NCBI GenBank assembly: GCA_015071005.1
Contig: SVIG01000004.1
Coordinates: 124,001 to 188,000, forward strand
DNA from: Clostridiales bacterium
Lineage (GTDB): Bacteria > Bacillota > Clostridia > Christensenellales > Borkfalkiaceae
Direction of reading: 5' to 3'
DNA: 64,000 bases
Part shown: positions 19,338-44,155 of the stretch, piece by piece
How the letters are laid out: each line of letters starts with the position of its first letter
Numbering within the stretch: position 1 is the first letter of the stretch
Translations under genes and position numbers: made by a program
The notes under the pieces: model-generated
Database searches by the model: none
The model's input: only the letters and a program-made list of their open reading frames with translations
Told to the model about the DNA's origin: nothing

Positions 19338-19391
19338 TTGACTTTTTTCTTTTGCGGTGGTATACTATTTATACAACCGAATACGAACGAA

Positions 19392-19592
19392 CGGTACTTT
19401 GTCTAAGGACAAGGTTTAATAGGGAAGAGGGAAATCGGTGTTTTCCGAATTGCTCCGCTGCCGCCACAACCGTAAGAACGTCCGTCCGCTTTCACTGCGT
19501 AAAACGTGGGAAGGAAGGGGGCAGGTACGCGTTGAATGCGTACAAGGGCGTTGTAAGCCGGGAGACCTGCCGCGCGTTTTAGAAAACGATTT
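19392..19592 (+). promoter_or_regulatory. Cobalamin riboswitch aptamer
   Basis: TTTAATAGGGAA...CGGTG...TGCCGCCACAACCGTAA...GTAAGCCGGGAGACCTGCC conserved elements. Confidence 0.88.
19517..19536 (+). repeat. Dispersed repeat, exact consensus copy inside the cobalamin riboswitch
   Basis: GGGGGCAGGTACGCGTTGAA. Confidence 0.9.
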
Positions 19593-19655
19593 TCTGCGGA
19601 CGGGCGGAAAGGCGTTATTTACCGCTTGAAAGCCGAGCGGAGATTTTCGCATACC

Positions 19656-19694
19656 ATTCCCCGAAAGCAAGAGGTTGCTTTCGGGGAATTTTTT
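19656..19694 (+). terminator. Riboswitch expression-platform terminator
   Basis: ATTCCCCGAAAGCAA-GAGG-TTGCTTTCGGGGAATTTTTT. Confidence 0.9.
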
Positions 19695-19710
19695 AAGGAG
19701 TGGCGAAGAA

Positions 19711-20124
19711 ATGAAAGTTTTTCGTAAAGTGTTGGTAGGTTTGTTGCTCGCTTTGACGGCTGTCCTTTCGTCCGTTTTGTTTTTTGCGTGCGGCAAGAGC
19801 GCGGACGGGGTGGAGCCGTTGGTGATTGTCGCGGACGAGAATGCGGCAGGGAAGACGTTGCTGGAAGTGATGTCGGAAATGGAAGAAAACGGAGAGTTTT
19901 CCTATAAAGTAAAGGATGGTATGATTGTAGAGATTAACGGCACGGAAAACGATTTGGATTACAATCCTTGCTGGATGCTCTATACGTCCGACCAAGAAAA
20001 CTCGAATACGGCGTGGGGGGAATATGAGTACGGCGGCGAAACGCTCGGTAGCGCGAGCGTCGGCGCGGATAGCTTGATTGTAAAATCGGGTGAAGTGTAC
20101 GTTTGGGTGTATCAAGAATTTTAA
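19711..20124 (+). CDS. DUF4430-type lipoprotein (putative ligand-binding partner of ECF system)
   Basis: Lipobox FFACG; WMLYTSDQENSNTAWGEYEY...VYVWVYQEF; after cobalamin riboswitch; start trimmed. Confidence 0.8.
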   Translation: MKVFRKVLVGLLLALTAVLSSVLFFACGKSADGVEPLVIVADENAAGKTLLEVMSEMEENGEFSYKVKDGMIVEINGTENDLDYNPCWMLYTSDQENSNTAWGEYEYGGETLGSASVGADSLIVKSGEVYVWVYQEF

Positions 20125-20133
20125 TCAAAAGAA

Positions 20134-20153
20134 GGGGGCATGTACGCGTTGAA
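20134..20153 (+). repeat. Dispersed repeat overlapping the annotated start of the S component
   Basis: GGGGGCATGTACGCGTTGAA (19/20). Confidence 0.85.
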
Positions 20154-20727
20154 TAGCGAAAATAAGCAAACACAAACACGGGAAAAAACCGTCAAACAAA
20201 GGGCGGCGCGCACGAGCAAGGAAGTTGCGTACGTCGCGGTTTTTGTCGCGCTCGTGATTGCTGCGCAGCTTGTGTTTGCGATGATTCCAGGGCTTGAAAT
20301 TGTCACCGTGCTATTCGTTTCCTATGCCTTTGCGTTTGGGATTTGTAGGGGAATGCTCGCTGCGACGTCGTTTTCGCTGCTTCGGCAGCTCGTTTTTGGG
20401 TTTGTGCCGTCTGTTTTAGCGTTGTATTTGCTTTATTTCAATCTATTGACGTTGCTTTTCGGTGTGTTAGGCAGGGCAGTGAAACGCCCGTCGTTAAACC
20501 TTTGGTGGCTCGTCGCAGTTGCTTGCGCGTGTACCGCGCTCTTTTCTATCCTCGATAATCTAATTACGCCTTTTTGGCTGGGGTACGGTTGGAAAGAAGC
20601 GAAGAAATATTTTTTGCTTTCCTTGCCCGTGATGTTTCCGCAAATCGGTTGTACGGGGGTGACGGTTGGATTTTTGTTTTTACCGTTGATAAAGGCGTTT
20701 CGGTTGACAAAAAGGGGCTTGCGTTGA
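20140..20727 (+). CDS. ECF transporter S component (putative cobalamin/corrinoid substrate)
   Basis: Polytopic small membrane protein; S-component-like N-terminal VAYVAVFVALVIAAQLVFAMIPGLE; under cobalamin riboswitch. Confidence 0.78.
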   Translation: MYALNSENKQTQTREKTVKQRAARTSKEVAYVAVFVALVIAAQLVFAMIPGLEIVTVLFVSYAFAFGICRGMLAATSFSLLRQLVFGFVPSVLALYLLYFNLLTLLFGVLGRAVKRPSLNLWWLVAVACACTALFSILDNLITPFWLGYGWKEAKKYFLLSLPVMFPQIGCTGVTVGFLFLPLIKAFRLTKRGLR

Positions 20728-23636: not shown

Positions 23637-23723
23637 ACGGATATTTTGTGGAAAAATTCGGGAAATATTCCCCAAACACTTGCCTTTTGCGCGCGTATGC
23701 GGTATAATAATTAAAAAGTAAGA

Positions 23724-23812
23724 GTAGCTTTGACGCGTTAAGTGCTGCCGAACGGGACGTTGTCGGTGGACGAAAGAAGAAATTTTCTGCGGTGTCAAGG
23801 CGCGTCCGCTAC
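23724..23812 (+). promoter_or_regulatory. Tetrahydrofolate (THF) riboswitch
   Basis: GTAGC..GACGCGTTAAGTG..GAACGGGACGTTGTC...GGTGTCAAGGCGCGTCCGCTAC matches the folT-type THF aptamer; TATAAT box just upstream at 23703. Confidence 0.88.
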
Positions 23813-23817
23813 AAAAT

Positions 23818-23840
23818 GGGGCGACCGTGTACGCGTTGAA
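23818..23840 (+). repeat. Dispersed repeat, variant form, between THF aptamer and folT
   Basis: GGGGCGACCGTGTACGCGTTGAA. Confidence 0.8.
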
Positions 23841-23899
23841 CGATAAATACACGAACGCTCACAAGCTTTGCGGACCTTCTTTTTAAGGAGGTTTTTATT

Positions 23900-28519: not shown

Positions 28520-29854
28520 ATGCTGAAAATTACGAAGGTAAAACGGAATAGCATTGGCAAAGAACTCGGCTTAGAGGTCGGGGATTGTATCGTCGCGTTC
28601 GACGGACATCCTTGCGAGGACGAGCTCGATTATTTGTACTATTGCGAAACGGACGGTTTTTCCATGACGGTACGCGATAAGCGCGGCGAAGGGGAAGTGA
28701 CGGTCGAAATTGAAAAGGACGAAGGGGAAGATTTGGGCTTGGAGTTTGAGAAAAACACCGCCATTCGCACCTGTCATAATCGTTGCGTCTTTTGCTTTGT
28801 CGATCAAATGCCTAAGGGTATGCGCGAGAGCTTGTACGTCAAGGACGACGATTACGGCATGAGCTTTTCGTGCGGAAATTTCGTCACCCTTACCAACCTT
28901 TCGGACGAGGGTTTAGAGCGGATTATTCGCTTGAAGCTTTCCCCGTTGTACGTATCGGTGCATACGTTGAACCCCGAGCTGCGCGTAAAATTGTTGCGAA
29001 ACCGTTTTGCTGGCAAGATTGTCGAGCAAATAAAACGGCTTGTGGAAGGCGGGATACATTTGCATTGTCAAGCGGTGTTAGTGCCGAATGAAAACGATGG
29101 CGAGGAGCTTGCTTATACGGCGCGCGAGCTTTTCAAGTACTACCCTTACGTCGAAGATATCGCGTGCGTGCCAACGGGGCTTACCAAGTACCGCGAGGGC
29201 TTGTACCCGATTGCGGACGTGGACGGAGAGTACAGCGCTAAACTCCTTGATCTCGTAGATGAATTAAACGAAGAATTCGGGGTAAACTTCTTGCTCCCTG
29301 CCGACGAGTATTTCGTTAAGTCGGGGCGGAAGTTCAAGGACGCGAGCTTTTACGGCGACTTTGAACAAATCGAAAATGGGATCGGTATGACGGCAAAATT
29401 CCTTGCCGAAGCGAACACGGCGCTTGCCGAGCTTATCGGAAACGGTGGGGGCAGGTATGCGTTGAAAACGCCGAAAAAGTCCTTAATCGTGTGCGGCACG
29501 AGCGCGGAAGGGCTGAATAGAGAGCTTATAGCGCGTTGCAACGGCAGTATAGAAAGCCTGCACGCGGACGTGCTTGCGGTAGAAAACGATTACTTTGGGC
29601 ATACCGTTACGTGTACGGGACTTTTGACGGGCGTGGATATTTTACGCGCGCTTGAAAAGTACCGCGAAAGGGGCGGCGAGTTTGACGAAGTGGTGTTGGC
29701 TGGCAACGTTTTGAAGGAGTTTGAGGACGTGTTCCTTTGTGGAATGACGTTGAGAGAATTGAAGAAAAAATTAGCTTTTGAGAATATCCGCATCAACCGT
29801 GACGGGGGTTATGGTTTGATAGAAATATTAGCAAGTGACGGAGGTGATAGATAA
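28520..29854 (+). CDS. DUF512 / PDZ radical-SAM-like protein
   Basis: PDZ start; TCHNRCVFCFVDQMPKGMRESLYVKDDDYGMSFSCGNFVTLTN. Confidence 0.88.
   Translation: MLKITKVKRNSIGKELGLEVGDCIVAFDGHPCEDELDYLYYCETDGFSMTVRDKRGEGEVTVEIEKDEGEDLGLEFEKNTAIRTCHNRCVFCFVDQMPKGMRESLYVKDDDYGMSFSCGNFVTLTNLSDEGLERIIRLKLSPLYVSVHTLNPELRVKLLRNRFAGKIVEQIKRLVEGGIHLHCQAVLVPNENDGEELAYTARELFKYYPYVEDIACVPTGLTKYREGLYPIADVDGEYSAKLLDLVDELNEEFGVNFLLPADEYFVKSGRKFKDASFYGDFEQIENGIGMTAKFLAEANTALAELIGNGGGRYALKTPKKSLIVCGTSAEGLNRELIARCNGSIESLHADVLAVENDYFGHTVTCTGLLTGVDILRALEKYRERGGEFDEVVLAGNVLKEFEDVFLCGMTLRELKKKLAFENIRINRDGGYGLIEILASDGGDR
29447..29466 (+). repeat. Dispersed repeat inside the DUF512 CDS
   Basis: GGGGGCAGGTATGCGTTGAA (19/20). 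Confidence 0.85.
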
Positions 29855-37288: not shown

Positions 37289-37657
37289 GGGGATGCACCG
37301 GATTCGATTGCCGGTGAGCGAAGAAATAAGCATACCGTAGACGGAGCGGCTACGATAAAACGTTCCACCTAAATTTAAATGCAGACAGAAATGCAAACTA
37401 CGCTCTTGCAGCGTAACTCGTTTTTATAAAAACGATCGTCGCGCCTGATTTATCCGTCGGTTAGGGTCGCGGCGTCAATTAGACGGAACACTCTCGTTTG
37501 AATCGGAAGGTGTTTGCGCGAGAGTATTTAGCCTTCTGCGTTGCGCAAAGCGTGTTCACCCGCGTTGTGTAATTAAGAAATAATAGATGAAATAAGTATG
37601 TAGAAAGTTTTTTGGCAGCCGAGTAAGACGTGAGTTCAACTCTCACCATCTCCACCA
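37289..37657 (+). ncRNA. ssrA: Transfer-messenger RNA
   Basis: GGGGATGCACCGGATTCGATTGCC start; tag frame GCA GAC AGA AAT GCA AAC TAC GCT CTT GCA GCG TAA = ADRNANYALAA; end GAGTTCAACTCTCACCATCTCCACCA. Confidence 0.96.
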
Positions 37658-37703
37658 ACGAAATGACGCCTTTGGGGCGTCTTTTTTCGTTGGTGGAGAT
37701 GGT
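37645..37703 (+). repeat. Perfect 19-bp inverted repeat of tmRNA 3' end flanking the terminator
   Basis: ACCATCTCCACCAACGAAA (37645-37663) and TTTCGTTGGTGGAGATGGT (37685-37703). Confidence 0.9.
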
Positions 37704-42778: not shown

Positions 42779-44155
42779 ATGCAAACGAACGTAAAAGAAC
42801 TTATCAACGCGCAGCGTGCGTTTTTTCAAAGCGGAAGGACCTTGTCTATCGATTTCCGTATTGAAGCGTTAAAGAAACTTTATAAGGCTGTGCAGGAGTC
42901 CGAAAAAGAGATTTTAGACGCTTTGCAAGCGGATTTGGGGAAGAGCGAAACGGAAAGCTATATGTGCGAAGTGGGTATGGCGCTTTCGGAGATTCGCTAT
43001 ATGTGCAAGCACGTGAAAAAATGGTCGAAGGGGAAGAAGGTGCATACGCCCATCGCGCAATTTGCGGCAAAAAGCTATCAAAAGCCGTCGCCGTATGGGA
43101 ATGCACTCATTATGAGCCCTTGGAATTATCCCTTTTTATTGACGGTCGATCCGATTGCTAATGCAATCGCGGCAGGAAACACCGCTATTGTAAAGCCAAG
43201 TGCTTACGCACCCCAAACAAGCGCGACGATAGAAAAACTGCTTTCCAAGACTTTTCCGAAGGAGTATATCGCCGTTGTAACGGGCGGAAGACAGGAAAAC
43301 GCGGCGCTTTTGGACGAGAAGTTTGATATTGTATTCTTTACGGGCAGTCAAGCGGTGGGGAAAGAGGTGCTGCGTAAATGCGCTGAGCATTTAACGCCTG
43401 CGGTGCTGGAATTGGGCGGCAAAAGCCCGTGTATCGTGGACGAAACGGCGAAGCTTCCGCTTGCGGCGAAACGGATTGTCTTTGGGAAATTCCTAAACTG
43501 CGGTCAAACCTGCGTCGCGCCCGATTACGTCTTATGCCATAGTGCGGTAAAAGACGAGTTACTTGCGGAAATCAAAAAGCAAATCAAGCTGCAATTTGGC
43601 GAAAAACCGCTTGAAAATCAAAGCTATGGAAAGATAGTGAACGAAAAACATTTCGAGCGTTTGGTGGGGATAATGGATCGTGAAAAAGTAGTCTACGGTG
43701 GGGGCGTGTACGCGTTGAAGCAAAAAATCGAGCCTACCGTGATGGCGAACGTCACTTGGGACGATCCCGTGATGCAAGAAGAGATTTTTGGCCCGATTTT
43801 GCCGATTTTGACCTTTGAAGAATTCGATGAGATTTATACGCTCCTGCAAGATAAGCAAAAGCCGCTCGCGTTCTATCTTTTTACGGAAAATAAACGCCGC
43901 GCACGTGCAGCTTTTGAAAAATGTAGATTTGGCGGCGGGTGTATCAACGATACGATTATCCATCTTGCTACAAGCGAAATGGGTTTTGGCGGCGTTGGAG
44001 AAAGCGGTATGGGCGCGTATCACGGTAAGACGGGCTTCGACGCCTTTTCCCATTATAAGAGTATCGTGAAAAAGGGCACGAAAATCGATTTACCCATGCG
44101 CTATCAGCCGTATAAAAAATCCAAAGAAAAACTCATTCGAAAGTTCTTGAAATAA
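42779..44155 (+). CDS. Aldehyde dehydrogenase (class 3-like)
   Basis: SPWNYPFLLTVDP, LELGGKSPCIVD, NCGQTCVAPDY, PVMQEEIFGPILPIL. Confidence 0.95.
   Translation: MQTNVKELINAQRAFFQSGRTLSIDFRIEALKKLYKAVQESEKEILDALQADLGKSETESYMCEVGMALSEIRYMCKHVKKWSKGKKVHTPIAQFAAKSYQKPSPYGNALIMSPWNYPFLLTVDPIANAIAAGNTAIVKPSAYAPQTSATIEKLLSKTFPKEYIAVVTGGRQENAALLDEKFDIVFFTGSQAVGKEVLRKCAEHLTPAVLELGGKSPCIVDETAKLPLAAKRIVFGKFLNCGQTCVAPDYVLCHSAVKDELLAEIKKQIKLQFGEKPLENQSYGKIVNEKHFERLVGIMDREKVVYGGGVYALKQKIEPTVMANVTWDDPVMQEEIFGPILPILTFEEFDEIYTLLQDKQKPLAFYLFTENKRRARAAFEKCRFGGGCINDTIIHLATSEMGFGGVGESGMGAYHGKTGFDAFSHYKSIVKKGTKIDLPMRYQPYKKSKEKLIRKFLK
43700..43719 (+). repeat. Dispersed repeat inside the ALDH CDS
   Basis: GGGGGCGTGTACGCGTTGAA (identical to copy at 48870). 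Confidence 0.85.

Follow-up and report, generated by a model that had tools for sequence, protein, structure and literature searches.

A dispersed, genus-specific DNA motif with helically phased arms, probably a site for a wrapping protein, is accommodated in the peripheral arm of a cobalamin riboswitch

Within the 64,000-nucleotide stretch of DNA analysed here (the window), the peripheral arm of a cobalamin riboswitch houses a copy of a long motif that recurs throughout the genome and is restricted to the genus. We consider this motif to be, more likely than not, a dispersed DNA site for a wrapping protein, which the riboswitch has accommodated in this arm. Around the conserved core, A/T tracts are arranged in helical phase on both sides, and orthologous riboswitches without the motif lack this phasing.

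The motif copy in the cobalamin riboswitch

The cobalamin riboswitch aptamer (RF00174) spans positions 19375–19588 of the forward strand, where the covariance model is matched across the whole aptamer (model positions 1–189 of 189) with a cmscan score of 69.5 bits, as against a gathering score of 31.5, and it is the sole cobalamin riboswitch in the window. It resembles other members of RF00174 in this end-to-end match and in its place ahead of a DUF4430 gene and a putative transporter gene, but differs in that a DNA motif lies inside a variable side arm in 25 of the 45 orthologous sequences. The leader closes with an intrinsic-terminator-like hairpin and a run of T's at ~19659–19694 (forward strand; from sequence and fold), in keeping with the downstream terminator of the original prediction. 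Under the riboswitch lies a lipoprotein-like DUF4430 gene (19711–20124, forward strand; PF14478 with E=1.9e-5 on the open reading frame 19675–20124, the ATG at 19711 being taken from the sequence), followed by a second operon gene (20140–20727, forward strand), an open reading frame whose orthologs follow the riboswitch at related loci. Its product, for which there was no Pfam match, is a hydrophobic protein that appears to resemble an ECF-type S component. A second strong copy of the motif (20132–20154, forward strand; weight-matrix score 39.4) merges with the ribosome-binding site and the start ATG of this second gene, and in many orthologs (loci L079–L123), the ribosome-binding site and start codon remain motif-like, for example as GGCAGGTACGAGATGAAC.

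Positions 19517–19550 read GGGGGCAGGTACGCGTTGAATGCGTACAAGGGCG and lie between GGGAAGG and GTAAGCCGGGAGACCTGCC. The original prediction had placed an exact consensus copy here, after the GGGAAGG segment of the aptamer, and indeed the conserved core of the dispersed motif, in this case GAAGGAAGGGGGCAGGTACGCGTTGAA (19510–19536, forward strand; index -8 to +18), is a perfect match to the core of the genome-wide consensus and has the best weight-matrix score in the window (42.9), with the “exact consensus” status of the copy varying with the sequence set used. Moreover, as 19517–19537 (GGGGGCAGGTACGCGTTGAAT) is followed by TGCGTAC, the hairpin that had been proposed from the repeat and these following bases can form, and it recurs in the predicted fold, where 19525–19532 pairs with 19536–19543. 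In this peripheral hairpin, GTACGCGT-TGA-ATGCGTAC (19525–19543, forward strand), the 5′ strand and the loop consist of motif letters, and the 3′ strand does not.

The hairpin belongs to a local three-way junction that emerged from the predicted folds (41 orthologs folded). In the minimum-energy fold of the segment, the helix closing this junction has its 5′ strand at 19477–19483 (forward strand), pairing with 19546–19552. A further stem is predicted between 19484–19493 (5′ strand; forward strand) and 19513–19522, the latter holding the motif GGGGC, both from the fold of the window's genome and from orthologs with changed pairs. This stem, whose 3′ strand is supplied by the motif GGGGC, recurs in the folded orthologs, and the 5′ strand of the second hairpin is supplied by GGTAYGCG. 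In the Rfam alignment (cmscan), 19 nt of the copy form an insert relative to the model, between its positions 151 and 152. The view that the repeat is tolerated in, or was added as, a peripheral helix thus stands as regards the largely variable, peripheral location; a conserved core helix of identical sequence in repeat-free relatives was not what we found. Simple addition of the repeat, on the other hand, does not hold up: the stem to which the motif contributes its 5′ GGGGC is present in folded orthologs, a second hairpin of unrelated sequence is frequent in motif-free species too, and where coding copies could be traced, their origin lay in substitution or in loops of variable length.

The riboswitch is present, nearly always singly, in 44 congeners (the window's genome included). 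Directly after GGGAAGG, the 45 distinct orthologous sequences comprise 25 with the motif, one intermediate, and 19 that are motif-free, the last having at the same place a second hairpin of unrelated sequence or an open, plain linker. Among the motif-bearing species, the partner strands of the motif stems differ from one species to another in the predicted folds, and therefore it is changes outside the motif that maintain the pairing. Such compensated pairing suggests that RNA pairing was kept while the DNA motif was imposed, with cobalamin sensing and the aptamer fold probably being unaffected. When mapped on a tree built from a neighbouring protein, which was poorly resolved, the presence of the motif called for 11 changes as compared with 12.5 when shuffled, which suggests that the riboswitch motif is hardly clustered and was repeatedly gained or lost. 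Motif-rich genomes also tended to carry the motif in the riboswitch (Fisher p=1.8e-4; Spearman -0.48; both without tree correction), but with only two independent pairs on supported branches, this is not established independently of descent.

A dispersed motif confined to the genus

The motif has the consensus AAAnnRnGGGGGCAGGTAYGCGTTGAA. Searched as a 20-mer across the whole genome (1.69 Mb in 12 contigs), it occurs at 102 places with at most three mismatches versus one place for a reversed control, a high-copy, genome-wide spread far above chance of the kind seen with DNA uptake sequences (DUS/USS). In the window, the 23-mer AAGGGGGCANGTACGCGTTGAAT gave four matches with at most three mismatches (shuffle mean 0.00), and a weight matrix whose training set excluded the window gave 22 sites at a score of at least 12, as against 0.3 in shuffles; weaker recurrences of the core number about twenty. 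Site density is about 0.22–0.34 per kb with a fairly even spread, and the 0.22 per kb found on two other contigs extrapolates to ~400 weight-matrix sites per genome. The site-score thresholds were of our choosing (12 in surveying the genome and, in the tests on orthologs, 18 and 6), and all sequences are draft metagenome-assembled genomes (MAGs).

As for its distribution, the motif is found in 54 of 56 congeners, at up to 130 places, and almost entirely missing from genomes beyond the genus, these copy counts resting on one motif dialect and so understating species with variants. In the motif-free genome G001, no alternative dialect was found in 262 kb. A scan of GTDB r220 listed matches (at least 80 records) that were all from uncultured Clostridia or Clostridiales MAGs, and among these listed matches, the titles that name a host refer to deer, sheep, or goat hindgut. 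No match to the motif letters was found among the papers searched.

A tetrahydrofolate (THF) riboswitch (RF01831) at 23718–23841 is also accompanied by a motif core, which falls within ~10 bases after it (23822, weight-matrix score 18.9).

A/T tracts phased to the core

Around the core, A/T content oscillates with a period of ~11.6 bp (11.5–11.7 per arm), and it does so over 75 bp or more in either direction. The A/T peaks, at -73, -62, -50, -40, -26, and -15 and at 25, 37, 49, 60, 71, and 82, are symmetric about core index +5. The phasing amplitude is 0.061 and 0.062 in the two arms, whereas random sets reach at most 0.014; the phasing is equally strong inside and between genes, and it is seen as well in independent public MAG copies that were selected by the core alone. 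Background periodicity as a cause was rejected, in that the genome's own 11.5-bp signal is weak and matched A/T anchors away from motifs have an amplitude of ~0.004, as opposed to 0.05–0.06 at the motifs.

At the riboswitch, the upstream arm (19443–19508, forward strand) has a z of 1.86, as scored with a template from other contigs and in line with the population profile, and the downstream arm (19538–19603, forward strand) a z of 2.72. For both arms together, z is 3.21; in the comparison of the 22 window sites, which have a mean z of 1.79 (template trained on two other contigs), the riboswitch site scored 3.27. Among the riboswitch orthologs, the mean arm z is 2.43 for the 25 with the motif versus 0.50 for the 19 without it (p=1.2e-6, a value that is indicative only, the species being related). 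At other loci, namely the aldehyde dehydrogenase and radical-SAM neighbourhoods, some motif-free orthologs are partially phased, and hence the arms may partly predate the core. As a stand-alone predictor, the arms recover few sites, with motif sites making up only 5–10 of the top 200–400 arm-only peaks. Dispersed motifs with roles in uptake, repair, and segregation have been described, but to our knowledge, none of them combines a long conserved core with helical phasing of the arms on either side.

Origin of the copies

Within the aldehyde dehydrogenase gene (42779–44155), a copy of the motif at 43701 can be followed in an ortholog alignment, where it aligns without gaps to 12 other orthologs (13 aligned in all, with no indel at the site). 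These 12 share only GGG-GGC-AGG or a similar start, and, as judged from this alignment, the remainder of the motif is a product of substitution in place. The copy at 29448 in a radical-SAM gene sits within a loop whose length varies between species, and therefore indels also contribute there. USS are likewise known to evolve by point mutation (PMC7811141), which is the mode seen at the dehydrogenase site, the radical-SAM site being mixed.

These two genes bear directly on whether the motif is a small mobile palindromic element (REP-, MITE-, or RPE-like) that brought a ready-made hairpin into the riboswitch by insertion. The core and its following bases can pair as a hairpin, perfect inverted pairs stand at several gene ends, and the radical-SAM copy lies in a loop of variable length, all of which would suit such an element. 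Against it, the dehydrogenase site has no indel, the hairpin in the riboswitch has a 3′ strand that varies from species to species, and the flanks beyond any plausible insert are phased too. In fact, no inserted unit with defined ends or a clean indel was found; beyond the core, only the A/T phase is shared, and no sequence. The motif is like REP/BIME, MITE, and Rickettsia palindromic elements in being short, dispersed, hairpin-forming in places, and also present within genes, but unlike them it has no unit with fixed ends, the core alone being shared, and it arose mainly by substitution where traced. We regard a mobile element as very improbable. As the general mode, insertion of a mobile hairpin was rejected on the strength of the dehydrogenase site, with the radical-SAM loop allowing mixed origins.

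Genomic location and orientation

Sites are most frequent in convergent spacers (1.73 per kb), followed by tandem spacers (0.57), divergent spacers (0.21), and genes (0.18), and the convergent and divergent densities differ with p=1.6e-4, these rates being approximate as the gene calls came from a simple codon-score script. There are also seven overlapping opposed pairs, mostly at gene ends, such as just after gyrA, and these could serve as terminators.

Copies are found between genes and also within them, there in several reading frames, and they run in either orientation. This is hard to reconcile with a motif that acts in RNA, whether as a hairpin that tunes the riboswitch or as a site for a small RNA or protein. 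The copy does lie within a folded leader (fold z = -3.94), and pairing is kept in motif-bearing species; however, the aptamer is retained, with other hairpins, in orthologs that lack the motif, and the flanks are phased at the DNA level. There is, in our estimate, very little chance that the motif works in this way, and an RNA-level element as such was rejected in view of copies in several frames, on both strands, and in coding and intergenic regions, along with the phased A/T flanks.

Like the oriented motifs Chi and KOPS, ~70% of the copies run along the G-rich (leading) strand. Unlike these, the motif is much longer, is enriched between genes, and has only a mild polarity, which may be explained by G-richness and gene direction. 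For genes on the lagging strand, 13 copies follow the direction of the gene and 12 that of replication, and a Chi- or KOPS-type motif was rejected.

Tail-to-tail enrichment and opposed pairs at gene ends are, moreover, features of the self-DNA transfer signals of Neisseria and the Pasteurellaceae (PMC1852404). If the motif were a signal of this DUS/USS kind, preferred uptake or donor packaging followed by recombination would raise its copy number by point mutation. Several of its traits agree with the Neisseria DUS and Haemophilus USS: it is dispersed, limited to the genus, and present in genes and spacers, it arises in place by point mutation, and its A-rich start and A/T flanks are as in USS. 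ComEC is encoded in 57 of 57 genus genomes (G000–G056). Furthermore, for hundreds of highly optimised sites, biased DNA transfer is an easier explanation than selection on supercoiling, and this counts against a wrapping site. On the other side, seven congener genomes (drafts, from which genes may be missing) contained ComEC alone of the uptake machinery, with neither a type IV pilus/competence ATPase (T2SSE) above cut-off nor an N_methyl pilin, whereas the same profile search was clearly positive in a genome of the same order. Strong HHH_3 matches were confined to a ~727-aa protein, which is not of ComEA size. The core is also longer than in DUS/USS, the density of ~1 per 4 kb is about a quarter of that of USS (1 per ~1 kb), and symmetric phased arms of at least 75 bp on both sides would be unexpected for an uptake receptor. 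Taken together, a transfer signal seems to us rather unlikely, but if it were one, an uptake-like system would exist in bacteria seemingly without type IV pili.

A putative DNA-wrapping site

A genus-specific site for a wrapping protein is the reading that we favour as probable. Here, a DNA-wrapping protein complex would bind a site of ~170 bp, in which A/T tracts at ~11.6 bp per turn flank an asymmetric 27-bp core on both sides and are centred on it. From the features above we infer the binding by a protein, the binder's identity, and a benefit to the cell. Such sites would build up mainly by substitution where the sequence is already similar or tolerant, as in gene 3′ ends, protein loops, and the riboswitch side arm. 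In the riboswitch, the 5′ half of the core would double as a strand of the conserved stem and its 3′ half as a strand of the optional hairpin, with the opposite strands being adjusted lineage by lineage. More tentatively, as a proposal about which we are slightly more doubtful than confident, several hundred evolved sequence-specific wrapping sites, spread by substitution, may make up a nucleosome-like positioning code that is read by gyrase or another wrapping protein.

Taken on its own, DNA gyrase is a possible binder and the first candidate, by analogy with known gyrase sites. The E. coli gyrase motif has a central 36 bp and two 47-bp arms with a 10.75-bp GC periodicity (PMC6379681), gyrases of other species have 10–11 bp periodic preferences (PMC12324340), and gyrase wraps DNA positively (PMC12393610). 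A period above 10.5 bp would, we suggest, fit a right-handed wrap such as that by gyrase. The likeness to the E. coli gyrase cleavage motif, Mu SGS, and BIME-2 lies in a central segment of ~36–40 bp with two symmetric, helically periodic A/T-G/C arms, and in an accumulation of sites between convergent genes and at 3′ ends. By contrast, the period here is 11.6 rather than 10.75 bp, the arms are longer (at least 75 versus ~47 bp), and whereas the E. coli motif has a degenerate and symmetric centre, the core here is asymmetric, strongly conserved, and restricted to the genus. GyrA with a GyrA box is encoded in the genus; the close relatives G001 and G002 have GyrA and lack the motif, which counts against gyrase. 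We classed the motif as neither a known type of gyrase site nor an uptake sequence.

In these two motif-free genomes (loci L320 in G001 and L317 in G002), the GyrA box reads QGRAGKG, as compared with QSRGGKG or a close form in most others, a difference that may reflect descent only.

A nucleoid protein other than gyrase, for instance an Lrp/AsnC-type octamer or another wrapping factor, might instead nucleate on the motif along the chromosome. This agrees with the symmetric phased arms and their period above 10.5 bp, with the fairly even spread (~0.22–0.34 per kb), and with the weak genome-wide 11.5-bp periodicity. However, the enrichment at convergent ends and the low density at divergent promoters fit topological stress better than a regulator, and we think such a protein unlikely.

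If a wrapping protein does read the motif, the ~57 genus genomes would constitute a natural experiment on how topology sites originate and move, with the riboswitch as a case in which motif and fold are reconciled inside a structured RNA. Either way, hairpins in riboswitch side arms call for a check at the DNA level before an RNA function is assigned to them.

Other repeats

An unrelated second repeat family, made up of clustered CGTGAATTGCATTGC-like units, occurs on contigs C2 and C6 of the window's genome (e.g., C2:156526–156723, L279), in several clusters with spacings of ~20 nt and 89 nt and with no exact copy in the window. In G001, a tandem array of a 69-bp unit containing ATCGTCACGCTCGTTAAAC is found at L347:17924–18653. 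Finally, at the tmRNA in the window (37645–37703), a 19-nt sequence made up of the last 13 nt and the six following bases is repeated 21 nt downstream as a perfect inverted copy, and base pairing between the acceptor end of the tmRNA and its 3′ flank would thus be possible in the precursor.
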